A DNA stretch of 64,000 bases from contig WVSM01000005.1 in the NCBI GenBank assembly GCA_015689645.1, positions 124,001 through 188,000 of the forward strand, given 5' to 3'. The notes beneath the pieces were generated by a model. It did no database searches and was not told where the DNA came from. It saw only the letters and a program-made list of their open reading frames with translations. This document shows positions 3,935-44,858 of the stretch, one piece after another. Positions within the stretch are counted from its first letter, which is position 1, and each line of letters opens with the position of its first letter. The translations under genes and the position numbers were made by a program. The stretch comes from Rhodobacterales bacterium HKCCE4037. GTDB taxonomy: Bacteria; Pseudomonadota; Alphaproteobacteria; Rhodobacterales; Rhodobacteraceae.

Positions 3935-3954
3935 AAAGTCATATAACTAGACTT
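3935..3954. promoter_or_regulatory. Candidate operator (site 1) upstream of exported MBL copy 1
   Basis: The site reads AAAGTCATATAACTAGACTT, a variant of the ten-site palindrome AAAGCTA-N6-TAGCTTT with the same spacing (TCA, six bases, TAG). It lies 92 bases upstream of the MBL ATG at 3843. The matching position upstream of MBL copy 2 carries a related site (44839-44858). Confidence 0.6.
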
Positions 3955-4060
3955 TTAAGATTATTGTAGTCTTTTTTGCGGTCCCGACTCTTCGTTTCGA
4001 CGCGGCGATCTGCATGTGCAGCGCGCAGCCCACCATGCCACCAAACATTGACCTTCTAAA

Positions 4061-4080
4061 TAAGTTATAAATATAGCTTA
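4061..4080. promoter_or_regulatory. Candidate operator (site 2) upstream of the pcaH remnant
   Basis: The site reads TAAGTTATAAATATAGCTTA, two 8-base arms with one mismatch around four bases. It corresponds in position to site 44713-44732 in front of the intact pcaH, and both are followed by a TGGTCAACAG stretch. Confidence 0.65.
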
Positions 4081-4148
4081 ATGACTGGTCAACAGAGTAG
4101 TTGCGCTATGGCGCGGTGGCGTTTCGATTTGGGAGGAGCGATAGAACA

Positions 4149-4340
4149 AGGATACATTATCCTTGCGCAGCTACGATCCGTGGCCTGACGGGGTTCAGCC
4201 GAGCGTGCCGATCGAGCGCTACAGCAATCCCTGGACCTACATGCCGTCGCAGACGCTCTATCACCGCCCGGCCACGCGGACGGAAGCACCGGGCCTGTCG
4301 ATCTCTGGTGTAAACTTAAGCTAGAATGCGGTGACCACGC
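4149..4340 (+). pseudogene. Decayed 5' fragment of protocatechuate 3,4-dioxygenase beta gene (pcaH)
   Basis: Reading from 4154, the translation TLSLRSYDPWPDGVQPSVPI and the following YSNPW, MPSQTLYHRP and TRTEAPG match residues about 4-49 of the intact PcaH encoded at 43932-44645. A one-base deletion near 4290 (a G run shortened) shifts the frame; in the next frame the match resumes as GPVDLWCKLK and CGDH. The region matching the intact ATG is also altered, so the start codon is lost. Homology ends near 4340 and the dioxygenase domain is absent. It is a relic of a duplicated module, not a functional gene. Confidence 0.85.
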
Positions 4341-4455
4341 TCTTCCGGTGCATGACTTGTGTGCGATACTGACAAATCCGTGAGACCGCGACTTTTCGGT
4401 TGTGCCCAGAGACCGGATCGCGATCTTCACGCCGAAAGCAGAAAACGGGACTTCG

Positions 4456-4770
4456 ATGCGTCTCTTGGGCCTTTTGATGATTTTGCTGGTTGCGAACCTG
4501 TTGACGACCGCCTCGGTCGACCTGTCAGGTTCCGGCTGTGCGAATGGCGTGGCGGAACTGGACTATTGCCCGCCCTCCGCGGTGGACCCGTCTAGAAACA
4601 ACCACGCGGATCGCAACGTTTCGGCCTGTGTCACCTGTGTAGAACCGGAACCCAACGTGGTGCCGAGGTTCGAACCTGGACAGAATCCACTCACTTTCGT
4701 CGAGGCCGCTCTCCTCGTGACAACGCGCGCCGACGGACCGCTTCATCCGCCTCCGCGCCGGGTTTCCTGA
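4456..4770 (+). CDS. Small hypothetical exported or membrane-anchored protein
   Basis: The 104-residue frame starts MRLLGLLMILLVANLLTT, a strongly hydrophobic N-terminus suited to a signal peptide or anchor. Four cysteines follow in the central part (GSGCANG, DYCPP, ACVTC) and the C-terminus is proline-rich (GPLHPPPRR). A weak GGGA element precedes the chosen ATG, and the frame could also open at 4402. It precedes the DoxX gene by 80 bases on the same strand. I do not recognise a family; it could be a chance frame, but the signal-like start favours a real gene. Confidence 0.45.
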   Translation: MRLLGLLMILLVANLLTTASVDLSGSGCANGVAELDYCPPSAVDPSRNNHADRNVSACVTCVEPEPNVVPRFEPGQNPLTFVEAALLVTTRADGPLHPPPRRVS

Positions 4771-4850
4771 CCCCGATCATCATCGAAGGCTCAACGCCTC
4801 CGAACCGTATCAGGTGCGGCAGTTCTACTGCGCACCACAGGAGACAAGAC

Positions 4851-5306
4851 ATGAATACCAAATATCTCTCGACCGACCGGCCTCTGGTCATCCCCGCTCT
4901 CGAAACCCTTTACGAACGGCTCGCGCCGCTGGCCTTCACGTGGCTGCGGGTGATGTGTGGCCTTGCGCTTGTCGTGCATGGCTGGCCCAAGATCACCAAC
5001 CCGCTGGGTTCAGCCGACATGGTCGCCGGCATCGGCTTCCAGCCCGCCGCCTTCTGGTCGGTGGCGTTGGCAGTGACTGAATTCGGGGGAGGGCTTCTCA
5101 TCATTTTGGGTTTGTTGACCCGCCTCGCAGCGGCCGGTTGCACGATTGTCCTTTTGGTGACCGTTTACTTTCATTGGGTGCAACTGGGCCAGGGATACAG
5201 TGGCGCGGAGCTGTCATTGATATGGTCATCAGTCACGCTGTACCTCGTTGCAGTCGGCGGCGGGCGCCTGTCGCTCGACCGGGCTCTGTTGCCCCGCAAC
5301 CTCTGA
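4851..5306 (+). CDS. DoxX family membrane protein
   Basis: The 151-residue product has the layout of DoxX proteins: a helix with LRVMCGLALVVHGWPKI at about residues 30-50, then three more hydrophobic helices around residues 65-90, 92-112 and 120-140. The HG-W-K pattern at the end of the first helix is typical. The start ATG follows an AGGAGACAAGAC ribosome binding site. DoxX proteins are small four-helix membrane proteins of poorly defined redox-related function. No partner gene is evident; the next gene starts 670 bases away on the other strand. Confidence 0.8.
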   Translation: MNTKYLSTDRPLVIPALETLYERLAPLAFTWLRVMCGLALVVHGWPKITNPLGSADMVAGIGFQPAAFWSVALAVTEFGGGLLIILGLLTRLAAAGCTIVLLVTVYFHWVQLGQGYSGAELSLIWSSVTLYLVAVGGGRLSLDRALLPRNL

Positions 5307-5978
5307 ACGAACGACGTCAAATGGGCTGCTGCCTCGTTCACTCCGGACACTGGCTTCTTGACCAGGGTCGGATGGTTGTTCGCTGAGCAAGTTATTAGAG
5401 CTGGCTGACCTTTCCAGACCAAGACAAGGTCTTTCACGCCAAACGGCAGGGCGAGATGCCTACGGATTTCGCCCTGCGACCGATTGGAAGCTCGGAGCCT
5501 GTTTCCCCTGCCATGCTGCAGAGGGATTGGCGGGTTCAGAGCTGGACGCGTTCTATGATTGGATGGCGCAACCGCTAGGAGCATTGGATCGACGCCTTCG
5601 TAAATCGAAGCAGGTAGCCGCTCGCCGCAAATGGCGATCGTGTACAGGCCGGTCCCGGCGTCGCCGTCAGTCGAAGAGCCGTGGCCATTGCGAACGTCAC
5701 GATCCGTGTCACTGTCGCAGCGGAACAGGGGTTCAACTCGTTAGATCTTGGGCGGCAAAGCAACCACCTCATTTACCTCGACCCTATGTCACTCGACCGG
5801 AAGAATGCGTGCTCCGCGCGCGCATTGATGTGCCTGAAGGGTGGGCTGCCCGCAAAGTCTAGCCCGCCGGACTGCCGATCATTCCGGTGCGGTCGTTGCC
5901 CGGCGGAGTGGCGTAGCATTCAGACATGCGGCGATCAGGGCTGCGGCGCCAAGAAGTCTGGACTCAGCCCGGTGAAGG
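5307..5978. other. Non-coding or decayed stretch with one hairpin
   Basis: No open frame here gives a recognisable protein on either strand. A 9-bp perfect stem, GCAGGGCGA at 5446-5454 with TCGCCCTGC at 5469-5477 and a 14-base loop, is present but has no T tract. The stretch sits between a plus-strand gene end and the minus-strand tctA end, near the decayed pcaH piece, so it may be degraded DNA from an old rearrangement. Confidence 0.4.
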
Positions 5979-7517
5979 TCACTGACCGGTAGGGGCCTGC
6001 AGGTCGCCGTCCAGCGGCTTCTTTTTCTTGCGGGGTCCGAGATAGATGATCGAGCCGATGGACATTGCGATCAGTGCAAGGGCGATCGGGTGGCTCAACA
6101 GCGCGGCCGGGTCGTCATTGGTGATCAGTCGTGCACGCACCACCGCGCCTTCAAGTTGCGGCGTGAGCAGGAACGCCACGATGAAGGCGACGATGGAATA
6201 GCCGAAGGCCCGCATCATATAGCCGAAGATTGCAGAAACGATCATCACGTAGACGCCGAAACTCGCGCCGGTGATCACGAAGGAGCCTGCAAAGCACAAC
6301 AGCATCGCCGCAGGATAGATGACGGTGCCCGGTGCCGAGACGACCATGGCCCAGAAGCGCATACCGATCTGGCCGACGCCGAGATTGCAGAAGTTCGCGA
6401 CCAGCATCGCGCCGAACATGCCGTAGACCAGTTGCGCCTGTTGCTCGAACAACAGGGGCCCGGGCTGAATGCCGTGGATGATGAACGCCGAGACCAGAAG
6501 GGCGGCGGCGATGTTGCCGGGGATGCCAAGGGTCAGGAGCGGGATCAGGTTCGCGCCGACAACGGCGCTGTTGGCGGTTTCGGAGGCAGCGATCCCGCGC
6601 GGATCTCCGGTTCCGAATGCCTCGGGGTCTTTGGCGGCCTGTTTGTTGACGGAATAGCTCAGGAAGCCCGCCGTGGTAGAGCCGAGGCCCGGAATGGCCC
6701 CGATCACCGTGCCGATGAAAAAGGCGCGCACGGCGACGAAGCGGTTGGCCCAATATTCGGCGAAGGTCACGACGCTTTGCTCGCGCGTGCGGCCCTTCAT
6801 CGAGATCGCGGAGCTTTGGGTTTTCTGGTCAGAGCCGCGCATGCTCAGAAGGCCGACCAGAACACCGCTCATCGCGAGGGCTCCGATGCTGACTGCGGTC
6901 AGCGGCACGCCATCGTAAAGCTCGAGCACGCCGAAGGTGAAACGGGGTGTCGCCATGCCCGGATCGAGCCCGACCGTGGCCACCAGGATCCCGAACGCCG
7001 CCGAGATCAGTCCCTTGATCATGGAGTCGCCGACCAGCCCGCTGATGACTGTAAATGCGAGGATCATCAGGGCCGTGATCTCTACCGGCCCCATGTTCAA
7101 CGCCACGACGGCGAGCGGAGCCGCCAGCAGAATCAGCACGATGTCGCTGGCCAGATCGCCTGTCACGGAGTGATAGAGCGCGTATTTCATCGCCTTGAGC
7201 GGCTTGCCGTTCTTGGCCATGGGATGGCCATCCATCGTTGTTGCGGCAGACTCTGCCGATCCCGGCACGTTGAGCAGGATCGCTGGCACTGCCCCCCCGA
7301 CGGTTCCGCCCTTGTTGACCGAGATGAGGAAGGCGATCGCCGCCAAGGTGTCCATTCCGTAGGTCAGCGGAACGGCAATGGCCAAGGCCATGATGATGCT
7401 GAGCCCCGGGATTGCCCCCACGATCTGGCCAAGGATCACGCCGCCAAGGATGAACATGATGTTGGTCGGCGTGAAGACATCCGCGAAAGCGGCCAGCATG
7501 AGGGAGAGATCGAGCAT
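5979..7517 (-). CDS. tctA: Tripartite tricarboxylate transporter large permease, TTT-1
   Basis: This 512-residue protein has about twelve hydrophobic segments and the TctA hallmark stretches VGAIPGL near residue 35, NKGGTVGGAVPAILLNVPG around residues 69-87, and a second glycine-rich repeat GAIPGLGSTTAGFLSYSVN in the middle. It is the main transmembrane channel that takes a carboxylate from the TctC binding protein using an ion gradient. It follows tctB by 20 bases at the end of a tctCBA operon on the minus strand. Its N-terminal half is closest within this window to the permease of TTT-4 (47415-48965), not to those of TTT-2 or TTT-3. Confidence 0.93.
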   Translation of the reverse strand: MLDLSLMLAAFADVFTPTNIMFILGGVILGQIVGAIPGLSIIMALAIAVPLTYGMDTLAAIAFLISVNKGGTVGGAVPAILLNVPGSAESAATTMDGHPMAKNGKPLKAMKYALYHSVTGDLASDIVLILLAAPLAVVALNMGPVEITALMILAFTVISGLVGDSMIKGLISAAFGILVATVGLDPGMATPRFTFGVLELYDGVPLTAVSIGALAMSGVLVGLLSMRGSDQKTQSSAISMKGRTREQSVVTFAEYWANRFVAVRAFFIGTVIGAIPGLGSTTAGFLSYSVNKQAAKDPEAFGTGDPRGIAASETANSAVVGANLIPLLTLGIPGNIAAALLVSAFIIHGIQPGPLLFEQQAQLVYGMFGAMLVANFCNLGVGQIGMRFWAMVVSAPGTVIYPAAMLLCFAGSFVITGASFGVYVMIVSAIFGYMMRAFGYSIVAFIVAFLLTPQLEGAVVRARLITNDDPAALLSHPIALALIAMSIGSIIYLGPRKKKKPLDGDLQAPTGQ

Positions 7518-7537
7518 GGAAAGGGGGCCTCAAGAGG

Positions 7538-7963
7538 TCAGGACAGAGAACGCGACAGCACTACGGTGAACAGGAACCAGACGAAGAAAGGCACGGCGAT
7601 CAGGGTAGTGGCGGCCCAAAGCGGCCGGCGTTCGCGGAGCAGGACAAGGCTTGCGATCATCAGCCCGCAGGCGATGGGCAGGAAGCCAAGAAGCGGCAGC
7701 AAGAGCGCTGCGACGCCGAGCGCCACAATGAAACAAACGAAGCCGAAGAATTCCTTTCCGGCCGGGACCGACCCACCCGGACGGGCCAGCACGATCTGCG
7801 CCAGCCCCAGTCCCGAGATGAGCCAGCCCGCCGCGCGCGGAAACAGCGACGGGTCCAGCGGGTTGCCGGGCACCGCCGTCACGTAGGTTGGGACCAGCCA
7901 CACCAGCAGCGTGATACCGAACCCGAGGACGACGATGCCCTGAATGCGATCCGCGTTTATCAC
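7538..7963 (-). CDS. tctB: Tripartite tricarboxylate transporter small permease, TTT-1
   Basis: The 141-residue product has four hydrophobic helices, the TctB pattern, with DPSLFPRAAGW early and RRPLWAATTL before the last helix. The start is a GTG at 7963 that overlaps the TGA of tctC, which implies translational coupling. TctB is the small membrane subunit that assembles with TctA. Sequence conservation is low in this family, so identification rests on topology and on position between tctC and tctA. Confidence 0.88.
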   Translation of the reverse strand: MINADRIQGIVVLGFGITLLVWLVPTYVTAVPGNPLDPSLFPRAAGWLISGLGLAQIVLARPGGSVPAGKEFFGFVCFIVALGVAALLLPLLGFLPIACGLMIASLVLLRERRPLWAATTLIAVPFFVWFLFTVVLSRSLS

Positions 7964-8907
7964 TGGGCCAAGCGGTCGCCGTAGAAGGCGGAGGCGTCTG
8001 CAACCCAGGCCGCCGTGCCCTCGGGGCCCATGTTGCCCGGTACGGCCGATTGTCCGGCAAGGAACTCGATATACGACTCGGAAGACGTGACCGCCTCGAT
8101 CGCATCGGCGAGGCAGGATTGAACGTCGGCGGGCGTATCGCCGTTCATGATGAAGATGATGTGACCCTCGATCGACAGGTCGACGCCGCTTTCCATGGCG
8201 GTCATCGTGTCCGGGGCGTAGCTGGCCCGGTTTGCCGTCAGCGTCGCCAGCTGCACCATGGCGCCGGCCTCGATCTGCGGAACATGGGCCGCGCCCTGAA
8301 TGGTGGCGTCGACGTGCCCGCCAAGGGCTTCCTGCAATGCAGCCGCCGAACCCTGGCCCGGCACAGCCACCAAATCGACGTCGAAGTGTTCGGCCAGTGC
8401 CGTTACCGCGATCGTATGGCTCGACGCGCCAACTGAAATCGTTGCGCGGCCTTGCTCGCGGGCGAAGTCGACGAATTCTTCAAGGTTGCCATACGGTGCA
8501 TCGGCGAGCGCGACCAGGCCGTAGTTCAGCACCATGCCGGTGCCGAGGTAGGCGAAGTCTTCGTGCGTATAGCCGATGTCGGCATTGGTGTGGGGGTTGA
8601 TCGCCACGGTGGTGTTGCTGACCACGCCCACGGTCAGGCCGTCAGCTTCCGAGTCCAGCAAGCCACGTGCCATGACGCCGCCGCTGGCACCGGGGCGATT
8701 GTCGACCACGATGGTCCATCCGGTCGCTGCTTCGATGTCGCTGGCGACCCTGCGGGCCACCGTGTCGGTTCCGCCGCCGGCGCCGAACCCGACCAGGAAA
8801 TTGATGTTGCCGCCGGGATAATCCGCGGGGCAGGTGTCGGCAAAAGCGGTTGCCGCGGTCATCCCGACCGTTGCCATGCTGATGAAAAGTGACGGTAAGA
8901 TTTTCAT
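7960..8907 (-). CDS. tctC: Tripartite tricarboxylate transporter substrate-binding protein, TTT-1
   Basis: The 315-residue product has a signal peptide cleaved after about residue 23 (TAFA) and the TctC/Bug family opening NFLVGFGAGGGTDTVARRVA, followed by the NRPGASGGV segment. The ATG has a GGGAGG site. It binds a carboxylate, often aromatic or tricarboxylic in this family, in the periplasm. It is first in the tctCBA operon, and a candidate operator lies 23 bases upstream of its start. An enoyl-CoA hydratase operon leaves in the opposite direction from the same intergenic region. Confidence 0.92.
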   Translation of the reverse strand: MKILPSLFISMATVGMTAATAFADTCPADYPGGNINFLVGFGAGGGTDTVARRVASDIEAATGWTIVVDNRPGASGGVMARGLLDSEADGLTVGVVSNTTVAINPHTNADIGYTHEDFAYLGTGMVLNYGLVALADAPYGNLEEFVDFAREQGRATISVGASSHTIAVTALAEHFDVDLVAVPGQGSAAALQEALGGHVDATIQGAAHVPQIEAGAMVQLATLTANRASYAPDTMTAMESGVDLSIEGHIIFIMNGDTPADVQSCLADAIEAVTSSESYIEFLAGQSAVPGNMGPEGTAAWVADASAFYGDRLAQ

Positions 8908-8929
8908 TGATAGCCTCCCTGATATTTAA

Positions 8930-8949
8930 TAAGCTATAAACATAGTTTT
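8930..8949. promoter_or_regulatory. Candidate operator (site 3) upstream of TTT-1
   Basis: The site reads TAAGCTATAAACATAGTTTT, two 8-base arms with two mismatches and a 4-base centre. It is one of the stronger matches to the shared palindrome and lies 23 bases before the tctC start codon, where a bound repressor would block transcription. Confidence 0.7.
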
Positions 8950-9039
8950 TTAATTATTGCAACGCAATTTTCCGGCGACCTGCTCCGGCAGGGGAGGGGA
9001 CGAGGCTTCTTTGCTTGTTCATGTGAGCCACAAAACGTA

Positions 9040-9059
9040 AAATCTATATGATTAGATGA
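9040..9059. promoter_or_regulatory. Candidate operator (site 4) upstream of the 9137-12334 operon
   Basis: The site reads AAATCTATATGATTAGATGA, in which ATCTA and TAGAT are separated by six bases, the same frame as the AGCTA-N6-TAGCT sites. It is the most divergent of the arm sequences. It lies 78 bases before the enoyl-CoA hydratase ATG. Confidence 0.45.
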
Positions 9060-9136
9060 TATGCTTGTGCCGACCATTACGCTGTGCGAGAACGCAGGCA
9101 TATTCGTCGCTAGCGTGCCGGCAGGAGAAGTCGAAG

Positions 9137-9901
9137 ATGAGCCTTGAAACACTTGATGTCACCGTCGCCGACTACATCGCCACGGTCACGATCAACCGCC
9201 CTCCAGTCAACGCGCAGAACAACAAGCTGCGCGAGGAGATGCAGCTGGTCATGGACAGCCTTGGTGATCGGTCCGACGTACGCGCCATCGTTCTGACCGG
9301 CGAAGGCAAGGCGTTTTCTGCCGGAGCCGATCTGTCCGAACGGCCGACACAGGACCCGGGCAATTACACCGCTCACAACCGCCGGGTCCGGGCGAGTTTC
9401 GATTGCATCATGGAATGCCCCAAGCCGGTGATCGCGGCGGTCAACGGGCCGGCCATCGGGGCGGGATGCGTGACGGCATTGTGCTGCGACATTCTCGTGT
9501 TCTCGGAGAAAGGCTATCTCCAGATGACCGAAGTGAACGTGGGTCTTGCCGGCGGCGTGGCCCATGTGCGTCGCCACTTGGGAGAGTCCGATGCGCGGTT
9601 GATGCTGTTCACGGCCCGGCGTCTGTACGGGCCGGAATTGCTTCGAATGGGGGTCGCCTCTGCCTGCACGGCGCCAGAGAATCTGATCGAGACGGCAATG
9701 GGTATCGCGGGCGATATCGCCAAGGCCAGCCCCTCGGCAGTGCGCGCCGCCAAGGCTTCGTTCCAGGTGACCGAGGGACAGTCGATCTACGAGGGCTACC
9801 GGTTCGAGCAGGGTCAGACCAAGGCGCTGTCCACGTCCGAAGACAGTGCCGAGGCCATGGCCGCGTTCCGCGAAAAGCGTGCGCCCGTGTTCAAGCCGTG
9901 A
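9137..9901 (+). CDS. Enoyl-CoA hydratase/isomerase family protein
   Basis: The 254-residue protein has the crotonase fold signatures: the oxyanion-hole segment KAFSAGADLSE around residues 56-66 and PKPVIAAVNGPAIGAGCVTALCCD around residues 95-118. The ATG at 9137 is chosen because GCAGGAGAAG lies just upstream; the frame upstream of it has no support. It hydrates or isomerises an enoyl-CoA. It heads a four-gene operon with a D-2-hydroxyacid dehydrogenase and a two-subunit class I fumarase-like enzyme, so its substrate is probably a CoA ester of an unsaturated hydroxy or dicarboxylic acid. The exact substrate is unknown. Confidence 0.85.
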   Translation: MSLETLDVTVADYIATVTINRPPVNAQNNKLREEMQLVMDSLGDRSDVRAIVLTGEGKAFSAGADLSERPTQDPGNYTAHNRRVRASFDCIMECPKPVIAAVNGPAIGAGCVTALCCDILVFSEKGYLQMTEVNVGLAGGVAHVRRHLGESDARLMLFTARRLYGPELLRMGVASACTAPENLIETAMGIAGDIAKASPSAVRAAKASFQVTEGQSIYEGYRFEQGQTKALSTSEDSAEAMAAFREKRAPVFKP

Positions 9902-9911
9902 TCGTCCTGGA

Positions 9912-10826
9912 ATGACGCAGATGCGGTCCATAGCTGTTCTCGGTCGCATACCGCCCGACATCCGGAGCAGGCTCGAACCCGAGGTTTCCTTCGTGGATGC
10001 GGATGGGCTGGAAGCCATGACCGTTGATGCGAGAAATGCGATTACTCACGGGCTGACATCTGCCATGGGCGGAGCGAGCGCAGATGTCTTGGCGCTGCTG
10101 CCGGGATTGCAGGTCATTGTCAGTATCGGGGCCGGGAGCGACCGGTTCGACATGGACGGTCTGGACCAGCGCGGCATCACCTTGCGCACAACGCCGGACA
10201 TAATGACAGAAGACACTGCCGAATGCGCCGTGGCCTTGCTGTTTGCGGCGTTGCGCAATGTCGCCACCAATGACGCCTTCGTGCGGCGCGGCGACTGGGG
10301 GAATGGGCGCGCCGACCTCGGATGGCGGGTTTCGGGGCGCCGGGTGGGCATCGTCGGGCTTGGTCGGATTGGGAGCCGCGTGGCGTCCAAGTTGGATGCT
10401 TTGGGATGCGATGTGGCCTACACGGGGCGCGGCAAGAAGGACGTCCCGTGGCGCTTCGCCGGCTCGGTCGCTGCGTTGGCCGAGGCTGTGGACGTTCTGG
10501 TCCTGACCTGCTCGGGCGGGGAAGAGACGCGGGGCATCGTGACCCGCGACGTGCTGACGGCGCTTGGGCCCGAGGGCTTTCTCATCAATGTCTCACGCGG
10601 CTCGGTGGTAAACGAAGCGGCGTTGATCGACGCGCTAGAGCAGGGCCGGATTGCCGGTGCCGCCCTTGATGTGTTCGAGAATGAGCCCGCGCTCGACCCC
10701 CGCTTCGCGGCTTTGCCGAATTGCGTCCTGTCGCCACACGCGGCTGTCTTCACCCACGAGAACCGGCGCGATTTGCTGGCGGAGCTGCGACACCTGCTGA
10801 ATCTGACCGACGGCGGTCATCATTGA
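9912..10826 (+). CDS. D-2-hydroxyacid dehydrogenase (NAD(P)-dependent)
   Basis: The 304-residue protein has the D-isomer-specific dehydrogenase layout: an N-terminal catalytic half, the nucleotide-binding GLGRIGSRVASKL at about residues 145-157, the arginine in INVSRGSVVNE, the glutamate in DVFENEP and the histidine in LSPHAAVF. It interconverts a 2-oxoacid and a D-2-hydroxyacid. The ATG at 9912 is chosen because the earlier in-frame start would overlap the preceding gene. It follows the enoyl-CoA hydratase by 10 bases and precedes the fumarase-like genes by 18, so it is co-transcribed with them. Confidence 0.88.
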   Translation: MTQMRSIAVLGRIPPDIRSRLEPEVSFVDADGLEAMTVDARNAITHGLTSAMGGASADVLALLPGLQVIVSIGAGSDRFDMDGLDQRGITLRTTPDIMTEDTAECAVALLFAALRNVATNDAFVRRGDWGNGRADLGWRVSGRRVGIVGLGRIGSRVASKLDALGCDVAYTGRGKKDVPWRFAGSVAALAEAVDVLVLTCSGGEETRGIVTRDVLTALGPEGFLINVSRGSVVNEAALIDALEQGRIAGAALDVFENEPALDPRFAALPNCVLSPHAAVFTHENRRDLLAELRHLLNLTDGGHH

Positions 10827-10844
10827 AGGGGCGAGGAGCCGGGA

Positions 10845-12334: not shown

Positions 12335-12362
12335 CTGCCACGCCATCGTTGGCGCGGCAGTC
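12333..12362. terminator. Convergent-gene hairpin, probable bidirectional terminator
   Basis: GACTGCCACGCC (12333-12344) pairs with GGCGCGGCAGTC (12351-12362) around a 6-base loop, a 12-bp stem with one mismatch. It lies between two convergent genes. There is no long T tract, so termination efficiency is uncertain. Confidence 0.55.
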
Positions 12363-12369
12363 ACGGTAT

Positions 12370-12996: not shown

Positions 12997-13121
12997 GTCA
13001 CAAGTGCTCCATCGTACGTGGTTCGGTATTACACGGCAAGCTAGCGCGTTTCCGTCGCCGTCGGACCCGAATTGAGGCCCACGATTGCAAAGATTTCCTT
13101 GCATCCTCCGCAAATCTGTTA

Positions 13122-13141
13122 AAGGCTATTATTATAGCTTT
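13122..13141. promoter_or_regulatory. Candidate operator (site 5) between exported dioxygenase and TTT-2
   Basis: The site reads AAGGCTATTATTATAGCTTT, 8-base arms with one mismatch around TATT. It lies 62 bases before the tctC start and 125 bases before the dioxygenase start, so one bound dimer could control both divergent units. Confidence 0.7.
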
Positions 13142-13203
13142 TTAGAGTCGCTTCAGGTTTCATCCTTGACGTGCCGCAAAGAAGCAAAATGGGAGGAGAA
13201 AAA

Positions 13204-14196: not shown

Positions 14197-14260
14197 TAGC
14201 CGACCCTGACTGCGGCCATCCTGAAGGGTGGCCGCACCTTCTCCCTGTCGGAGGTTTTCA

Positions 14261-14698: not shown

Positions 14699-14703
14699 CC
14701 GCC

Positions 14704-32558: not shown

Positions 32559-32585
32559 GCGAGGCCTCCGGAAGGGGAAGTTGGA

Positions 32586-33985: not shown

Positions 33986-34047
33986 TCTCTTCCTCCCTTT
34001 TTAGAAGCCGTTGTGGTTGATCGTGGCGGCCTGCGGCTCCGACAGGC

Positions 34048-36023: not shown

Positions 36024-36065
36024 GGTCGCTCCCCTCCCGAGAACGATGAATGGACTGGCGGCGCG

Positions 36066-38008: not shown

Positions 38009-38043
38009 GATGTCATCTCACCTTGTCAGGTCGGCCGCCGAGG

Positions 38044-38601
38044 TCAGCTGCGGCTCCAGGAGTTGCAGAAGGTCGCGAACGCCGAGAGATGGGCGCGCAG
38101 GAACGCCTCCGTGTCGGCATTCGTGATCACGCTAGTGCCAACATCGACTTTGCCTTTTGCGCCAGCAAGCTGCACTTCGGGCTTGGCCATGATGATCATG
38201 TCTTGGCTATGCAGCGTGTGGCGCAGGCTTTCATGAACCCGGGCCCCGCCCAGGAGGCCGGGCGATACACTCCAGATCGCCACGGGCTTGTGCGCCAAGG
38301 GGTTCGGATTGACCCGGGATAGCCAGTCGATGGCATTCTTGAGCCCGCCGGGCACAGACCAGTTATACTCGGGTGTGACGATCAGGATGGCATCCACCGC
38401 AGCCACTGCCGCGATCATGGTCTGGACGCTGTCGGGCATGGCTTCGTCGAGAACATCCTGATTGAACAGCGGCAGGGTACCCGGGTTCGGAAGCGCTACG
38501 GCTGCCAAACCGTCAGGCATGAGCCCCGCTGCCGCCCTTGCCACGGCGCGAGAGAGCGATGCCTGCCGCAGGGAGCCTTCGAGAATGCCGAGCTGTGTCA
38601 T
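38044..38601 (-). CDS. NADPH-dependent FMN reductase family protein
   Basis: The 185-residue flavodoxin-like protein has LGILEGSLRQASLSRAVARA at the N-terminus (phosphate-binding loop) and IVTPEYNWSVPGGLKNAIDW around residues 95-114, a classical motif of NADPH-dependent FMN reductases and chromate/quinone reductases. It follows the dioxygenase gene by 10 bases. It may reduce a quinone formed from a dihydroxylated aromatic or supply reduced flavin. Confidence 0.88.
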   Translation of the reverse strand: MTQLGILEGSLRQASLSRAVARAAAGLMPDGLAAVALPNPGTLPLFNQDVLDEAMPDSVQTMIAAVAAVDAILIVTPEYNWSVPGGLKNAIDWLSRVNPNPLAHKPVAIWSVSPGLLGGARVHESLRHTLHSQDMIIMAKPEVQLAGAKGKVDVGTSVITNADTEAFLRAHLSAFATFCNSWSRS

Positions 38602-38611
38602 GCAATCTGCC

Positions 38612-39517
38612 TCATGCTGCGGGCGCGGCCCATGGGAAATGGTGCTCGCGCCACGGCAGCGGCGCCGGTTCGCCCCAGACGTTCATGACACGGACGTTAT
38701 CAGGCCGTTTCAGGGCGGTGATCACATTCGGCTCATAGCGGTCGTCGTCGTTGACGATTGCCATGTTGCCCGCGCATTCGACCATCGCGCCGCAGGTGTC
38801 GATGTAATAGGCAAAGGTGTTGTCGCCAGGGCGATGGCGGCCAGGGCCCCAGATGAAATTCTTCTCGACCGTGTCCAGCAGATCGCCGAGACGGCAATAA
38901 TCCGAAAATTCCGCGACTTCCCACGAATAGTGGTGCAGACCGGTCTCCCCGCGAACGATGCCGAGGATGTGGTGCAGACGGTTTGCGCCGCGCATCCAGC
39001 TCAGGCCATCGTCCACCATCCGCTCGGAAAGGCGCATCCCCATGATCTGTTCCATCTGGGAGCGCGTTTCGGCCGGTTCGGGCGAAGTGATGTTGACGTG
39101 GTCCATCCGCAGCGGAACCATGCCTGTCACAGCTTTGCGGTTGCCGTAGATTTCCGTGGCGACGGGGGAGTGCAACTCGAAGGTGTGGCCCTGTGGCGTG
39201 ACGAAGCTCATCCCCTTGGTGCAGACGTCCAAAGTGGGCTCGGTCGCCGCCAGTCGGCATCCGGCATCTTCGACACGCGCGGCCGCCTCGGCAACGGCGG
39301 CCTCTGAAACGGCCTCGAACCCGAGGGAGCGGATCGCGTTTTCCGATGCCTCATGAAGGACCAGTTCGGCGGAGCGTCCGTTGGACGAAAGCCAGACACA
39401 GCCAGCAGCCTCCCGCGTCACATGCAGGCCGAGGATCGTGGTGGATTCACGCACCAAAGCGTCCACGTCGATGACGTTCAACTGAACGTGTCCGACCGAA
39501 TTGACCAGATAACTCAC
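38612..39517 (-). CDS. VOC family extradiol-type ring-cleavage dioxygenase
   Basis: The 301-residue product has two vicinal-oxygen-chelate modules. The C-terminal one keeps the metal ligands of type I extradiol dioxygenases: His140 in MDHVNI, a histidine at 195/196 in GLHHYSWEV, and Glu247 in GAMVECAG. The start is a GTG at 39517, chosen because GGGGAGGTG lies just upstream and SYLVNSVGHVQLNVID follows as a proper first strand. It would cleave a catechol-like ring beside the hydroxyls. It heads the twelve-gene operon, with a TTTCGAAA motif upstream. Confidence 0.82.
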   Translation of the reverse strand: MSYLVNSVGHVQLNVIDVDALVRESTTILGLHVTREAAGCVWLSSNGRSAELVLHEASENAIRSLGFEAVSEAAVAEAAARVEDAGCRLAATEPTLDVCTKGMSFVTPQGHTFELHSPVATEIYGNRKAVTGMVPLRMDHVNITSPEPAETRSQMEQIMGMRLSERMVDDGLSWMRGANRLHHILGIVRGETGLHHYSWEVAEFSDYCRLGDLLDTVEKNFIWGPGRHRPGDNTFAYYIDTCGAMVECAGNMAIVNDDDRYEPNVITALKRPDNVRVMNVWGEPAPLPWREHHFPWAAPAA

Positions 39518-39580
39518 ATCCACCTCCCCGTGGCAATGCTTCCAAAAGATCGCTAACACAGAGTTTCGGCAATCACAAAC

Positions 39581-39592
39581 ATTTTCGAAACT
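39581..39592. promoter_or_regulatory. Candidate FadR-type operator A
   Basis: The site reads ATTTTCGAAACT. On the other strand it gives TTTCGAAAAT, matching two more sites at 40491 and 40573. It lies 64 bases upstream of the GTG start of the dioxygenase operon. Confidence 0.5.
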
Positions 39593-39628
39593 TTTTGCTT
39601 AGTGGAATAAATCGGCGTCCTCGGCCGG

Positions 39629-40474
39629 TCAGTCTTCGGCCTCAACAATGTTCGACAACAGGCCAATCCCCTCGATTTCCACCTCGACCAAGTCGCCCGG
39701 ACGAAGAAATTCCGGGGGCTTTCGCGTGGAACCGAAGCCTGTGCAGGTGCCGGTCACGATGACATCGCCAGGGACAAGCGGGGCAAAGGTCGAGATGTAG
39801 GAAATCAGGTAGGGGATATCGAAGATCATCCGCGACGTATCCGTGCGCTGTTTTTCGACCCCGTTGACCCGCGTCACGAGCGACAGGCCGTGTTCGGGTA
39901 TCGGGAGGTCATCCCGTCCCACCATCCATGGGCCGAAGGCACCGGTCCCGACAAAGTTCTTGCCCGGCGTGAATTGATGCGAGTGCTTTTGCCAATCCCG
40001 CACCGACCCATCGTTGTAGATCGAATAGCCCGCCACGTGGGACATGGCCTGTTCCCGTGGAATGTGGCGTCCACTCTTGCCCACGATCACGGCGAGCTCG
40101 CCTTCGAAATCCAGCTTCTCCGACGATTTGGGCTGGATCAGCGGTGCGCCATGGGCGATCTGCGACGTTGGTAAGCGCAGGAAGAGGACGGGATAATCAG
40201 GGATCTTCGCAGACCTCATGCCATCTTCATGATAATTCAACGCCGCCATCACGATCTTGTCGGGGTTCGGTATGACGGGCGCCAGCACGATCTCGTCGAA
40301 TCCCAGGTCCGGGGTGGTGACCTCATGCAGGAGCGCAGCGGGACAGCCGTCCGCTATGAATGATTTTAGATCCGGATACCGCCCCCCGAACCGGTGATGG
40401 AGATCTGCGATGCCCTGGCCGACGACACATCCCCAGGAGGCTTGGTCACCTCGCATGAAAGACAGCAGCTTCAT
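39629..40474 (-). CDS. Fumarylacetoacetate hydrolase family protein
   Basis: The 281-residue product has an FAH fold: the metal-binding KLDFEGELAVIVGK near residues 119-132, GYSIYNDGSVRDWQ, GKNFVGTGAFGPWM and VIVTGTCTGFGS at the C-terminus. Family members hydrolyse or decarboxylate 1,3-dioxo acids, or act as 2-oxopent-4-enoate hydratases in meta-cleavage routes. The gene lies 111 bases upstream of the dioxygenase operon, facing the same way, and is divergent from the FadR-type regulator. It probably shares that regulator. Confidence 0.88.
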   Translation of the reverse strand: MKLLSFMRGDQASWGCVVGQGIADLHHRFGGRYPDLKSFIADGCPAALLHEVTTPDLGFDEIVLAPVIPNPDKIVMAALNYHEDGMRSAKIPDYPVLFLRLPTSQIAHGAPLIQPKSSEKLDFEGELAVIVGKSGRHIPREQAMSHVAGYSIYNDGSVRDWQKHSHQFTPGKNFVGTGAFGPWMVGRDDLPIPEHGLSLVTRVNGVEKQRTDTSRMIFDIPYLISYISTFAPLVPGDVIVTGTCTGFGSTRKPPEFLRPGDLVEVEIEGIGLLSNIVEAED

Positions 40475-40489
40475 TCGTATCTCTTTCTA

Positions 40490-40500
40490 CTTTCGAAAAT
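40490..40500. promoter_or_regulatory. Candidate FadR-type operator B
   Basis: The site reads CTTTCGAAAAT and lies 15 bases upstream of the FAH-family ATG at 40474. It is the second of three TTCGAAAAT occurrences near the regulator gene. Confidence 0.55.
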
Positions 40501-40571
40501 ATGTGTATCGTTGAAATCGTAGTAGGTGAAGGAATATCTCGATTGTGATGGCGAGATCGGTTTCGCTGGGA

Positions 40572-40582
40572 TATTCGAAAAT
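40572..40582. promoter_or_regulatory. Candidate FadR-type operator C
   Basis: The site reads TATTCGAAAAT and lies 36-54 bases before the two possible starts of the regulator gene, a position suited to autoregulation. It shares the TTCGAAAAT core with operators A and B. Confidence 0.55.
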
Positions 40583-40636
40583 CCGAGGGTGTGCCGTCTT
40601 GACTGACGGGCGACCGAAATGAGGAGGGTGCAAGAA

Positions 40637-41332
40637 TTGACATCTCGCGATGAAGCCGCGACCGCCGATGCGAGCCCTTCTGGCTCTTCTGGTGGGCGCG
40701 ACGCGCTGTCCCGACTGCGCTCGGATATCGTCAGCAGTGTCTTCGAGCCCGAGATGCGGCTGAAGTTTGCCGAGATGACAAAGCGATACGATGTGGGCGT
40801 CGGCACTTTGCGCGAGGCGTTGTCGCAGCTTTCATCCGAGGGTTTCGTGACGGTGGAGGCGGGAAAGGGTTTCCGGGTTGCGCCCGTGTCGGCAGAGGAA
40901 CTGGTAGAGATTACCGATCACTTCATCGCGCTGGAAAAGCGTGCGGTGCGTGAGGCGATCGCACACGGCGGCGAGGATTGGGAAACACATATCGTGGCGG
41001 TGCATCACCGTCTGAGCCTGATCGAAGGTCTTCCGTGGGAAGCGAGGATGGAGCGCCACTCGGAATGGGTGGAGCGGCATCGCGAGTTTCATCACGCTCT
41101 GGTTGCTGCCTGTCCGGGGCGCTGGCTGCTGCGGTTGCGCTCGATGATGTTCGACCAACTGGACCGATACCGCTTCGTCACCAAGAAAGCCCCCGAGGGC
41201 CTGGGCCGCAAGAAATTCGAGGAGCATCGCCTCCTCATGCTGGCGACGCTGGAGCGTGATGCGGACAAGGCCTCCGATCTGATCGAGGCGCATATTCGCG
41301 ATACTTCAGATCGGGCCTTGGCCATGCTGTAG
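40637..41332 (+). CDS. GntR family regulator, FadR/FCD type
   Basis: The protein (231 residues from TTG, 237 from ATG) has a winged helix-turn-helix with MTKRYDVGVGTLREALSQLS and GFVTVEAGKGFRVAPVS, then an FCD ligand-binding domain with metal-type histidines in HREFHHALV, EEHRLLML and EAHIRDT. An in-frame ATG at 40619 has no ribosome binding site, whereas GAGGAGGG lies 8 bases before the TTG at 40637, so I prefer the TTG. It is divergent from the FAH gene and probably represses the right-hand operon through the TTCGAAAAT sites. Confidence 0.85.
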   Translation: MTSRDEAATADASPSGSSGGRDALSRLRSDIVSSVFEPEMRLKFAEMTKRYDVGVGTLREALSQLSSEGFVTVEAGKGFRVAPVSAEELVEITDHFIALEKRAVREAIAHGGEDWETHIVAVHHRLSLIEGLPWEARMERHSEWVERHREFHHALVAACPGRWLLRLRSMMFDQLDRYRFVTKKAPEGLGRKKFEEHRLLMLATLERDADKASDLIEAHIRDTSDRALAML

Positions 41333-41403: not shown

Positions 41404-42249
41404 TCAAGTAACGCGCGACGTATCACGCCCCTGGTCCGGCAAGCTCTTAAGCCAGTCTGTCAGCGCCTGCACCACGGCCTCCGGTTGCTCCGGCAACAAG
41501 GCGTGCCCGGCATTCTGGACGGTGCGGCAATCAGCAAGCGGCCCGATCGTATGCCGCAGCTCGCCGAGGTGGGGTGGTGGCGAGATCACGTCGTCCGATG
41601 CGCCGACATAAAGCGTTGGGTGCCGGTCGGCCACACGGATCCAGTCCTTGTCCAGGGTTGCCTTCGCAGCGCGCCGTTGGGCGGCCGACACCTCGGGCCA
41701 CCAACCATCCAGCCAGACCGAAGCATCGGCGCCCGGCGCGAAATAGACCCGTTGCAAATGGCCAAGGCGTTCCTGATCGCTCAACGTCATGTCGAAACTT
41801 GCGGAGATCGAGGCGCTGACTTCGCCCGGGACGACATTGGTGACAATCGCGGCGACAAGGGCCACGGCGCGGGTCAGATCGGGCCGGTCATGGGCCAGCA
41901 CACGGGCCACCCAGTTACCGGCCGCATGTCCGACGAGGACGGCAGGTGCGGCGTTTTCTTCCTCGATGATCGCAGCAATGTCTGCTGCCATGTCATGGAG
42001 CGTATCGTTCGACCCAAGGGGTGAGGACCCTTCGATACCACGCGGCTCGGGCAGGATCAGCTTCAATCCGGACTGCGCCAGACCTGGGACAAGCAAATCG
42101 AAGTCCTCGCTCCCCCTCCCAAGCGACGGGATGAGGACGACACAGGGGCCGTCACCGAAAACGCGGTAGGCGATCTTCGCGCCGTCGCGCGTCAAAGCCC
42201 GCTGAGCCGTATCGGTTAGGGCAGGTTTATCGTGTGGTCTGGATGTCAT
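41404..42249 (-). CDS. Alpha/beta hydrolase-fold protein lacking the serine nucleophile
   Basis: The 281-residue product has the alpha/beta hydrolase framework: CVVLIPSLGRGSEDFDLLVP near residues 36-55, LILPEPRGIEGSS near 64-76, the elbow GHAAG at 107-111 and a C-terminal NAGHALLPEQP with the usual histidine, plus VGASDDVISPP with the acid. In the elbow the nucleophile position (109) is alanine in the DNA as given. It may be an inactive binder, or use another mechanism as some cofactor-free enzymes of this fold do. The ATG at 42249 has no strong ribosome binding site. Confidence 0.8.
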   Translation of the reverse strand: MTSRPHDKPALTDTAQRALTRDGAKIAYRVFGDGPCVVLIPSLGRGSEDFDLLVPGLAQSGLKLILPEPRGIEGSSPLGSNDTLHDMAADIAAIIEEENAAPAVLVGHAAGNWVARVLAHDRPDLTRAVALVAAIVTNVVPGEVSASISASFDMTLSDQERLGHLQRVYFAPGADASVWLDGWWPEVSAAQRRAAKATLDKDWIRVADRHPTLYVGASDDVISPPPHLGELRHTIGPLADCRTVQNAGHALLPEQPEAVVQALTDWLKSLPDQGRDTSRVT

Positions 42250-42319
42250 GGTGCCGGAGGGAAATTTGAGCAAAAGTAGCCGGAATAACCTTTGGAAGAA
42301 ACGAACACGGAGCGCGAAA

Positions 42320-43300
42320 ATGAAGGTGTCGGTTATCGGGGCAGGGGCGATCGGCGGGTGGTTGACGGCGGGCTTCATCGAAGCGGGCGCGGATGTCAAA
42401 GTGCTGGCGCGCGGTGCCTCGCTGGACGCCCTGAGGGCGCGCGGACTCGGTCTGGACGATGGTGTATCGGAGCGGCGCTACGAGGTGTTCGCCACCGATG
42501 ACCCTGCCCAGTTGAAAGGCGCCGATGTTTTGCTCCTCGGGCTGAAGGCCCAGGATTTGCCGGCCCTCTCGTCCTTGATCGAACGCGCACTTGATCCACA
42601 AACCGTGGTCGTGCCAGCCATCAACGGGCTGCCTTGGTGGTTTTTCGAAGAGTTCGGCGGGCCGGCGCAGGGTTTGCAGCTGAACTCCACGGACCCGGGC
42701 GGCGTGCTGGCACGGCTGATGCCGGCTGACCGCGTGGTCGGCACGGTTGTGCACGCGGCGAGTTTCGTCAAATCCCCGGGAGACATTCGGCTCGTGGCAG
42801 CCAACGCTGTCTTGATGGGCGATGCAGGGCAGGGCGCGCATGCGGCCGCGATTGCCGATCACCTTGCAGCCGGCGGTGTGCCCGCTTCCGCGTCTGCACA
42901 GATTCATCATGATGTCTGGAGCAAGCTGTGGGGCAATTCCAACATGAACCCGCTTTCGGCGCTGTCGCGTGCCGACCTGTTGCAGATGCTTGATGACGAC
43001 GGCGTGCGGGCCTTGGCCGTCACGATGATGCAAGAGATGTCGCGTATCGGAGACAAGATCGGTTTGCGCGGCTTTGACGACATTGAAGAACGGATCGCGA
43101 AGACACGCAAATTGGGCGCCTTCCGCACGTCCATGCTGCAGGATGTTGAAGCGGGTCGGGCATTGGAACTCGATCCCATCCTCGGCGCGCTGGTCGAACT
43201 GGCACGCAAGCTGGATGTGCCCACGCCGACCATGGACGGCATCTACGGCCTGACACGCCTCTTGGCGCAGAGCCTTCGGGAGGAGTCCCGGACCGCGTGA
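42320..43300 (+). CDS. 2-dehydropantoate 2-reductase-like oxidoreductase
   Basis: The 326-residue product has the NADP-binding start MKVSVIGAGAIGGWLTAGFI and the ApbA/PanE layout, including VPAINGLPWW, KLWGNSNMNPLSALSRAD and a C-terminal helical domain ending PTPTMDGIYGLTRLLAQ. The ATG at 42320 follows CACGGAGCGCG. In catabolic clusters such paralogues reduce branched 2-oxo acids other than ketopantoate. It sits between a hydrolase and the convergent pcaG gene, so pantothenate synthesis is unlikely to be its job. Confidence 0.85.
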   Translation: MKVSVIGAGAIGGWLTAGFIEAGADVKVLARGASLDALRARGLGLDDGVSERRYEVFATDDPAQLKGADVLLLGLKAQDLPALSSLIERALDPQTVVVPAINGLPWWFFEEFGGPAQGLQLNSTDPGGVLARLMPADRVVGTVVHAASFVKSPGDIRLVAANAVLMGDAGQGAHAAAIADHLAAGGVPASASAQIHHDVWSKLWGNSNMNPLSALSRADLLQMLDDDGVRALAVTMMQEMSRIGDKIGLRGFDDIEERIAKTRKLGAFRTSMLQDVEAGRALELDPILGALVELARKLDVPTPTMDGIYGLTRLLAQSLREESRTA

Positions 43301-43314
43301 GTTGTGGAAAGGGG

Positions 43315-43932
43315 TCACGTCTCGAAGAAGGGGGTTTCCTCGCCCCGTGGCCCCCTGAGCAGAAAGTCGAACCCGTAGGATCGCACCCCGTCCACCATGC
43401 CGTTGTCACGCATGACCAGCATGTGGCGCAGGTCCTCAGGCAGCACTGAAAGCACGGGGTCCGCCGCGTTCTCTTCCGGAAAATCTGGGAAGAACAAGGT
43501 GGTCTCCGCGATCCGCATCAGGCCGATGCCCATGACCAGAATGTTCAGGTGCGGCGCGCGATGCTGGCCGTTCTCATCATAGCCTCCGGGGACAACGGAG
43601 TGAAACGAATAGGCGCCATCACCCTCGGACCATGCCCGGCCCCAACCAAGGAAATCTGGGTCGGCCTTGTCCGCTTCCGGGTCTTCGGGGTGCCGGAAAC
43701 GGCCGCTTGAGTCGGCCTGCCATAATTCCAGGATGGCGTTGGCCACGGGCTCGCGGCCTTCTTTTCTCACGATTCCGGTAAGGGTGAAGGGATCGCCTTT
43801 CGTGGTGGGCGCCGCGTCTGCCGAGACGCGGGTCAGATCGTTGTCTCCCGGCAGGAAGTAATCCGCCGGAAAGAAGGGGCCAATCGTGTGCTGCGAAAGC
43901 GGGAACCGGCGGGATTGCGTGAGATGCTGCAT
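43315..43932 (-). CDS. pcaG: Protocatechuate 3,4-dioxygenase, alpha subunit
   Basis: The 205-residue protein matches PcaG: QHTIGPFFPADYF at the N-terminus, LELWQADSSGRFRHPED in the middle, and APHLNILVMGIGLM where the beta subunit has the histidine iron ligands. As in other alpha subunits the ligand positions are replaced (Phe for Tyr in GRF, and PHLN for PHIH), so it does not bind iron. It follows pcaH with a one-base stop/start overlap (TAATG). Together they open protocatechuate to beta-carboxymuconate. Confidence 0.9.
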   Translation of the reverse strand: MQHLTQSRRFPLSQHTIGPFFPADYFLPGDNDLTRVSADAAPTTKGDPFTLTGIVRKEGREPVANAILELWQADSSGRFRHPEDPEADKADPDFLGWGRAWSEGDGAYSFHSVVPGGYDENGQHRAPHLNILVMGIGLMRIAETTLFFPDFPEENAADPVLSVLPEDLRHMLVMRDNGMVDGVRSYGFDFLLRGPRGEETPFFET

Positions 43933-44645
43933 TATGCCTCCGGGGTTGCGCTGCGTCCGCGCAGGACGATGTCGTGGTGAAAGCCGAGGTGGTCGACGCC
44001 AACATCCGCAGGATGCAGTTGCTTTGCGATGAGCCTCTGGCGCGCACCGGCATCACCCACGGATTGCAGGATACGGTCCCACTCATTCAAGGGATCGCCG
44101 GGGAAGTACATCTGCGTCACCAGCCTTGAGAGCGAACTTGGGCCAAGGACCGAGAAATGGATATGGGGCGGACGCCACCACGTGTCCTTCACGGGAACCG
44201 GGTAGGCGCCCGGTTTGATGGTCAGGAAGGAATAGCCCCCGTTTTCATCCGATCGTACCCGACCATGCCCGAGGAAGTTGGGATCGAGCGGGGCTTCGCG
44301 TTGGTCGAGCGCGTGGGTATAGCGCCCGGCGGCATTGGCCTGCCACAGTTCCACAATAGCATTCGGGATCGGGCGTCCATCTTCATCCAGCACCCGACCG
44401 GACACCTGCATCAGCAAGCCCTGGGCGAATTTTCCGGTCGATGTCTGGGCAAGGTTGCTGTCTCCGCACTTCAGCTTGCGCCAGAGGTTGGCAGGCCCCG
44501 TTGCTTCGGTCCGCGTGACCGGGCGCTGATAAAGCGTCTGCGACGGCGTGTGTGTCCAGGTGTTCGTATACCCTTCGATTGGCACGCTCGGCTGGACGCC
44601 CTCGGGCCACGGATCATAGCTGCGCAAGGATAACGTATTCCGCAT
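43932..44645 (-). CDS. pcaH: Protocatechuate 3,4-dioxygenase, beta subunit
   Basis: The 237-residue product has the PcaH pattern: LRSYDPWPEGVQPSVPIEGY near residues 7-26, GRYTHALDQREAPLDPNFLG near 107-127 and AYPVPVKDTWWRPPHIHFSV near 147-166. Iron ligands are Tyr109, Tyr148, His161 and His163. GGGAGAGCG precedes the ATG at 44645, which is preferred to an in-frame start 63 bases upstream. A candidate operator lies 67 bases upstream. A broken copy of its first 60 codons sits at 4149-4340. Confidence 0.92.
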   Translation of the reverse strand: MRNTLSLRSYDPWPEGVQPSVPIEGYTNTWTHTPSQTLYQRPVTRTEATGPANLWRKLKCGDSNLAQTSTGKFAQGLLMQVSGRVLDEDGRPIPNAIVELWQANAAGRYTHALDQREAPLDPNFLGHGRVRSDENGGYSFLTIKPGAYPVPVKDTWWRPPHIHFSVLGPSSLSRLVTQMYFPGDPLNEWDRILQSVGDAGARQRLIAKQLHPADVGVDHLGFHHDIVLRGRSATPEA

Positions 44646-44712
44646 GTTCTCTCGCTCTCCCGACTTAGGACCACACTGCGCCTGTCGCGCCGCCAATCTG
44701 TTGACCAACCAT

Positions 44713-44732
44713 TAAGCTACATTTATAGCTTA
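44713..44732. promoter_or_regulatory. Candidate operator (site 9) upstream of pcaHG
   Basis: The site reads TAAGCTACATTTATAGCTTA, with 7-base perfect arms TAAGCTA and TAGCTTA around six bases; it is the cleanest palindrome of the set. It corresponds to site 4061-4080 in front of the pcaH relic. Confidence 0.72.
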
Positions 44733-44838
44733 ATGCAAGGATCAATGTTGTGCGTCCCGGCGCGTTGCGGAGAGCACCTGAAGATCTTCAACGCGAAATC
44801 CGTAGCGAGCACCTCAAAAAAGACTATCAAAATACTTT

Positions 44839-44858
44839 AATGCTAGCTATATGACTTT
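44839..44858. promoter_or_regulatory. Candidate operator (site 10) upstream of exported MBL copy 2 and TTT-4
   Basis: The site reads AATGCTAGCTATATGACTTT, a variant with CTA-N6-TGA. It lies 91 bases before the MBL ATG, the same distance as site 3935-3954 from MBL copy 1. Apart from this site and site 9, the 304-base gap shows no other feature that I recognise. Confidence 0.6.

Follow-up and report, generated by a model that had tools for sequence, protein, structure and literature searches.

The window analysed here is a whole stretch of 64,000 nucleotides from Rhodobacterales bacterium HKCCE4037 (contig WVSM01000005.1, positions 124,001 to 188,000). It was found to contain a gene island whose pathway is catabolic by gene content (CaiB-type transferases, acyl-CoA dehydrogenases, crotonase, FadB-like, thiolase and PcaD-like proteins, and intradiol dioxygenases; several of these names were given by reading), together with four tripartite transporter sets, one of them in an inserted module at 28714–41332. 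The island also contained a gene (16231–16983, minus strand) for a regulator of the GntR family, and ten copies of a 20-base palindrome, named here by their first bases, were present in the intergenic regions between 3935 and 44858.

A sequence-only reading of the window had listed these ten sites under the form CTA-N6-TAG. All ten 20-mers were present, and they took ranks 1 to 10 of the window when scored with a palindromic matrix of 24 columns, which was built from the ten sites and used an AT-richer background. The form itself held in part: it was strict at six of the ten sites (8930, 9040, 13122, 22356, 22917, and 44713), which are the only six in the window (shuffle mean 0.85, and none of 100 shuffles reached 6), whereas 3935, 4061, 17092, and 44839 contained one imperfect arm. 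The conserved arms of the ten-site matrix occupied positions −9 to −4 from the palindrome centre. The scores ranged from 16.0 to 24.5 bits, and the next position of the window reached 12.6 bits. All ten real sites reached 15.9 bits, whereas dinucleotide shuffles of the intergenic DNA (1000 rounds, 30 segments, 6020 bases) gave no site of at least 15.9 bits, with a largest score of 15.2 and a mean best score of 5.6. The equal density of hits in shuffled AT-rich intergenic DNA, which the sequence-only reading had named as a possible refutation, was therefore not seen. When each site was left out of the matrix in turn, the scores were 11.5–22.9 bits, and 9040, 17092, and 44839 (11.5, 13.1, and 14.2 bits, respectively) dropped below the largest shuffle value; the matrix being trained on the ten, these three taken alone are less certain. 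As a set, the elements are confirmed as real and not a chance pattern.

The near-exact form was found to be confined to the island. Across the 3.84 Mb of the genome, AAGCTA-N6-TAGCTT was matched with one mismatch or none at six places, all inside the island; this pattern is too strict for sites as degenerate as four of the ten. Exactly two mismatches were found at 12 further places, all outside the window and all with spacers of at least half G+C. The number of independent sites is smaller than ten. The segment 2890–4320 is a diverged inverted copy of 44469–45903 (74.5% identity over 1442 bp), so that 3935 and 4061 are copies of 44839 and 44713, respectively; the earlier count of ten stands for the sites present, and eight of them are independent. 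The duplication takes in an MBL-fold gene, its intergenic region with the operators, and the first part of an intradiol dioxygenase gene, whose left copy is a remnant.

The sites were conserved in a sister genome of the same genus (G002), where the regulator is 92% identical and the residues of its helix-turn-helix (HTH) are the same. The gene order of G002 matches 5979–27316 (minus the gene 12370–12996) and then 41461–45911 (minus the gene 42320–43300), at about 72–76% DNA identity. For seven of the eight compared sites, G002 has a matching element that scores at least 11 bits in the orthologous position; the lowest score, 11.3 bits, belongs to the element matching 22917, in which 15 of 20 bases are conserved and the right arm is degraded. 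The operators were identical to G002 at 115 of 140 bases and the flanks at 152 of 364, the latter in an ungapped comparison, which lowers the flank figure where indels occur. The left-hand copies 3935 and 4061 have no counterpart in the G002 stretch examined.

The 16231–16983 protein contains an N-terminal GntR winged helix-turn-helix (PF00392, 60.8 bits, cut-off 27) followed by a C-terminal UTRA effector domain (PF07702, 67.4 bits, cut-off 23.8), which places it by domain content in the HutC-like subfamily. The FCD domain, which is present in the second GntR protein of the window (40628–41332), is absent from it. The protein is HutC-type by its domains, as the sequence-only reading had named it, and is not HutC itself: the HutC equivalog TIGR02018 scored 95.7 bits, below its cut-off of 220. 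No hut genes were recognised among the 29 distinct window proteins scanned (61 were called), nor by eye in partial translations. The closest solved relative by sequence was YvoA (4u0v, E 3.5e-16). In the alignment, two HTH arginines of YvoA are replaced by Glu and Asn in the window protein, and likewise in G002; by our own mapping they correspond to HTH positions 28 and 38 as tabulated in PMC4494728.

Similarity to the 16231–16983 protein was the sole criterion by which 42 loci were collected from public genomes, and the window matrix was made without them. In our study, we found that the sites co-occur with the regulator: 62 sites of at least 13 bits were present in 31 of the 42 loci, whereas ten block shuffles gave a mean of 0.1 and 60 column-permuted palindromic matrices a mean of 0.65 (largest 6). 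With the spacer one base shorter or longer, 11 or 7 sites were left. At a threshold of 11 bits, 70 sites were present in 33 of 41 loci (the short match L061 was left out and near-duplicates were kept). None of them lay within called genes, though these cover 88% of the bases; the calls came from a simple gene caller, and AT-rich operators themselves favour intergenic DNA. Most of the sites were found before tctC/tctB-, gntR-, PcaD-, crotonase-, FadB-, MaoC-, CaiB- or acyl-CoA-dehydrogenase-like genes, and some before unlabelled genes. The eight loci without a site at this threshold were seven of one clade, described below, and L054. Five loci (L031, L035, L057, L058, and L085) were found to hold a second, more distant relative of the regulator (44–50% identity to the window protein).

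A de novo motif search in the closest group (window, G002, and L020–L024) recovered the motif without the window matrix. The best motif of group C held the TAGCTT arm, and the search in groups B and D was caught by conserved, probably coding, sequence. In an unbiased dyad count over 33 loci, AAGCTA-N6 ranked second among the 6-base dyads (6 loci, 0.01 expected from base composition), a weak support in view of the many coding-type dyads ranking alongside it.

In a set of 394 genomes of the family, the regulator had a close relative in seven, and the island decarboxylase-like protein had a relative in 17, the own genome being in both counts. A close decarboxylase relative (at least 57% identity) was found in six genomes, all among the seven regulator-bearing ones, and a distant one (39–44%) in eleven genomes, none of which has a close regulator relative. 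The eleven control loci contained no site in 188,697 bases, whereas the seven regulator-bearing stretches, four of which apparently overlap the 42 fetched loci, contained 7 sites in 103,056 bases.

Protein and operator were found to differ together in one clade. Position 38 of the HTH was occupied by Asn, Thr, Ser or Gly in the relatives, except for ten with Arg followed by Ala; these ten are the Arg-38 cases among the 41 loci, none of which has Arg at position 28, and they form a single tree branch (99/96 support). All seven loci of the clade mentioned above belong to this branch. The Arg-38 operators resemble AAAGGCYA...TRGCCTTT, a matrix for which was seeded from four gntR-promoter sites. 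At 11 bits or more it gave 15 sites, spread over 9 of the 10 loci (the four seeds included, and one site repeating a seed sequence), compared with a mean of 1.1 in 40 shuffles. Outside the seeds, sites preceded GST-like genes in four loci (L038, L041, L042, and L050) and a TctC-like gene in L041. When the operators were aligned by their centres, the chief change in the Arg-38 clade was A to G at −8. A position-masked scan gave G at −8 in 11 of 20 Arg-38 arms vs. 15 of 120 elsewhere (Fisher p = 7e-5, although arms within one clade are not independent). In PMC4494728, an Arg-to-G contact is reported as likely conserved in GntR proteins. Four closely related Roseomonas-type loci with Arg-38 (L043, L044, L046, and L059) contained an AAAGGC palindrome (AAGGGC in L044) before gntR with few island-like genes nearby; L043 is a seed and L046 has the same sequence, so that they amount to about one observation.

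Five sites (4061, 8930, 22356, 22917, and 44713) showed a regular relation to promoter-like sequences. A −35 hexamer of the TTGAC type or TTGCAA starts 22–23 bp ahead of the operator centre; 17–18 bp after this hexamer, at +1, a TATA-type hexamer starts, one arm doubling as the −10 box. Over all loci, TTG-type hexamers at −23/−22 were found at 12 of 98 oriented sites, compared with 1.3 per offset; offsets inside the operator (+2 and +10) gave 10 and 8. The overlap with −10-like boxes at five of the ten sites suggests repression. Activators rarely bind over a −10 box, and HutC-type proteins of known function are mostly repressors.

Taken together, the ten elements are probably operators of the 16231–16983 protein, which would bind them as a dimer, repress the island genes, and be relieved by an intermediate of the island pathway; we put the probability of this reading at roughly 0.85. 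A dimer of the protein would bind the palindrome AAAGCTAT-N4-ATAGCTTT, and where one arm coincides with a −10-like hexamer (TATAGC or similar) the bound dimer would block RNA polymerase. An acid or an intermediate of the CoA pathway of the island may bind the UTRA domain and release the repressor, as expected from the protein family, and the transporters and enzymes would then be switched on together. The binding itself, the repression and its relief, and the kind of inducer are our inference. The claim of one coordinated regulon under this GntR protein is supported by the motif-rich loci of its relatives, the empty controls, the conservation in G002, and the co-variation of operator and recognition helix.

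Several observations weigh against this reading. The site 17092, which adjoins the regulator gene, is half conserved, with a single arm kept in G002 (6.2 bits). Two of the regulator-bearing stretches, L086 and L088, were empty at 11 bits, L054 reached 10.8 bits, and L053 contained no site by either the window or the Arg-38 matrix. Near-duplicates are present among the 41 loci. What the control loci contain is a distant decarboxylase relative and not the same pathway, so that they show the specificity of the motif more than a separation of regulator from pathway. At genome scale a relaxed pattern did not separate the genomes, as at least one match was found in 95 of 147 genomes (own included) and in 30 of 40 regulator-bearing genomes. 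The Arg-38 relatives being one clade, their co-variation counts as one event. The Arg-38 matrix was less specific than the window matrix: at a threshold of 11 bits it matched 4 positions in the control loci and 51 in the loci of other clades. The position-masked scan was noisy: 46 of 106 and 7 of 17 matches (53 of 123) fell within called genes and were discarded, and the matrix behind it was built with sites of both clades. No −10 overlap is seen at the remaining five of the ten sites. Of the promoter-like pairs at 44713, the better one points to the MBL gene 228 bases off and not to the dioxygenase genes. A sigma-70 consensus scan of 3600–23200 gave one promoter, at 22344–22372 across operator 22356, whereas shuffles gave more (4.6), a scan that by itself proves nothing.

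The sites might belong to another factor, encoded elsewhere or being the FCD-type GntR protein (40628–41332), and the 16231–16983 gene might merely share their cluster. The second GntR gene in the window speaks for this explanation, and the loci were selected through the first GntR protein, so that its neighbours are enriched too and the linkage is partly built in, a further point against our reading. We consider it unlikely, as the islands of G002 and L021 lack the block of the FCD gene and yet retain the sites; in the four Roseomonas-type loci, counted as about one observation, the palindrome still stands before gntR without most island genes nearby, and the operator base and the recognition-helix residue differ together. 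As a specific candidate the FCD-type GntR protein was rejected, its block being absent where the sites persist. Marginally less improbable is that the protein is an activator, either throughout or at some sites while repressing at others. Some sites, namely 9040 and 44839, are 88–102 bases away from the start codon that follows and show no clear −10 box overlapping them, and paired sites in divergent regions would also suit an activator; the clearest sites overlap a −10-like box, however, and the known HutC-type proteins favour repression.

That the elements are AT-rich core promoters, palindromic by chance, is by far the least probable of these explanations. At five of the ten sites a TATAG-type arm could plausibly serve as the −10 hexamer, but a promoter has no need of another, inverted arm at a constant distance from the first. 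Most of the matches are lost when one arm is shifted by a base, and hardly any are found with permuted palindromes of equal composition. Moreover, the operators of the Arg-38 clade end in CCTTT, the control loci also have promoters and yet no site, and no other place in the genome was found with at most one mismatch.

Under the reading as operators of the 16231–16983 protein, the sites can be assigned to genes individually. The centre of a site lies 32–102 bases from the nearest gene start at the eight sites with an intact called gene nearby. The left-hand copy at 3935–3954 (18.1 bits; 17 of 20 bases equal to 44839) lies before an MBL-fold gene, about 100 bases from its ATG at 3843, and the simple gene caller set that start further in. 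The copy at 4061–4080 (23.9 bits; 18 of 20 bases equal to 44713) lies before the dioxygenase remnant, with promoter-like pairs TTGACC-N17/18-TATA on both strands. The putative operator at 8930–8949 (23.0 bits; 17 of 20 bases kept in G002) was found before the tctC gene (7960–8907) of a tctCBA set on the minus strand, followed by 9040–9059 (16.0 bits; 17 of 20 kept) before a crotonase-family gene starting at 9137 on the plus strand, and by 13122–13141 (24.5 bits; 15 of 20 kept) before a second tctC at 13204. The least secure operator is 17092–17111 (16.5 bits), between gntR and a CaiB gene at 17153, with its centre 52 bases from the CaiB gene and 118 from gntR. The operator at 22356–22375 (23.2 bits; 17 of 20 kept) lies between the divergent PcaD-like (22321, minus) and MaoC-like (22419, plus) genes and overlaps TTGACC-N17-TATAGT, whereas 22917–22936 (24.4 bits) lies before an acyl-CoA dehydrogenase-like gene at 22960 and overlaps TTGACA-N18-TATAGC. 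On the right, 44713–44732 (22.9 bits; 19 of 20 kept) precedes the intradiol dioxygenase genes (43315–44645, minus), and 44839–44858 (17.8 bits; 15 of 20 kept) precedes an MBL-fold gene at 44950 on the plus strand. A weaker eleventh box (44820–44839, 12.6 bits) adjoins the latter at a distance of 19 bp, with a similar sequence in the left duplicate near 3957.

A conserved element, TTTGTGCTAGCTTATTGTGTTTT (17041–17063), was present in the gntR promoter region, with one strong arm, AAGCTA, on the gntR strand. Its AGCTAGC was found in all seven direct orthologs seen (window, G002, and L020–L024), and AAGCTAGC in five of the seven. The element is better conserved than the neighbouring site 17092.

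The likely targets include two transporter operons, tctCBA at 5979–8907 (minus) and the second tctCBA at 13204–16221 (plus), which were named by reading; two proteins of each were scanned without an NCBIfam match, and the order of both is kept in G002. The genes at 9137–12334 (plus) for the crotonase, a D-2-hydroxyacid dehydrogenase, and FumA/TtdA-type hydratase subunits, as well as the CaiB-type CoA transferase gene (17153–18379, plus), are also likely targets. A likely target operon at 18395–22321 (minus) contains PcaD-like, GST-like, CaiB, carboxymuconolactone-decarboxylase-like, and flavin-reductase-like genes; the PcaD and GST matches were below cut-off and the other names were given by reading. 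It is followed by the block 22419–28514 (plus), with MaoC-like, two acyl-CoA dehydrogenase-like, FadB-like, and thiolase genes, of which the MaoC-like match is weak and the other names were given by reading; the order is common with G002 up to 27316, and the thiolase adjoins FadB in L020 and L021. The last likely target (44950–48965, plus; named by reading) is the MBL-fold gene, possibly with the tctCBA genes that follow it; the tct set does not come after the MBL gene in G002. The MBL-fold protein of 2872–3843 resembles the CAR-family subclass B3 metallo-beta-lactamases (410 bits, cut-off 500), and that of 44950–45924 is its close paralog. In this catabolic setting the two may be lactone or ester hydrolases.

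The catabolic module at 28714–41332 lies outside the regulon. It contains no site and has its own FCD-type GntR gene (40628–41332), and it was not found at this place in the island of G002 or in the ortholog locus L021. The module is most plausibly an insertion under separate control, and this accounts for the correct earlier remark that no element was noticed between the genes of the right-hand operon; for the same reasons, the earlier description of an operator set linking the whole island was too wide. From 49001 on, no operators of at least 11 bits were found in the window. A neighbouring cluster of higher G+C content (50866–59110, named by reading) looks like taurine or sulfoacetaldehyde metabolism with a MocR-type regulator.

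Studying this operator set is important in several respects. An unnamed regulator gains a testable operator and a list of targets, and a single regulon spanning alphaproteobacteria joins transporter operons to several enzyme blocks. The search for the substrate also becomes narrower, as unassigned tripartite transporters are now grouped with enzymes that probably belong to one pathway. The two kinds of clade, with Arg at position 38 and G in the operator or without Arg and with A, form a natural pair for testing how GntR proteins read DNA. No description of this regulon was found in the open-access literature, judged mainly by titles.

The regulator resembles the HutC subfamily (HutC, NagR/YvoA, and DasR) in its GntR winged helix and UTRA domain and in the presence of palindromes in divergent transporter and catabolic regions. 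According to PMC4494728, the HutC operator usually reads NyGTMTAKACNy, in most cases with 4 nt between GT and AC. In contrast, the window operator contains no GT/AC box, and its arms lie further from the centre; the canonical GT-N4-AC reading of the sites was rejected, as no such box is present in the ten-site matrix. Arg at HTH positions 28 and 38 is frequent in the HutC subfamily and contacts G, membership without them being possible, whereas the window protein has Glu and Asn. Arm bases far from the palindrome centre have been reported for operators of the YtrA subfamily, but YtrA proteins contain short C-terminal domains and the window protein a full UTRA domain. FarR, NagQ, and SdhR are HutC-subfamily proteins whose operators, as here, depart from the GT-N4-AC rule; those of FarR and NagQ are direct repeats and that of SdhR is TCTTATGTCTTATATAAGACATAAGA, and none is like AAAGCTAT-N4-ATAGCTTT. 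On balance, it seems somewhat likely that a clade of UTRA-containing GntR proteins (in Rhodobacterales, Rhizobiales, Acetobacteraceae/Roseomonadaceae, and a Sphingomonas) has abandoned the operator rule of HutC while sharing a catabolic regulon: without both G-contacting arginines it would read this wide palindrome, and one branch would have kept or regained Arg-38 and would read AAAGGC arms.

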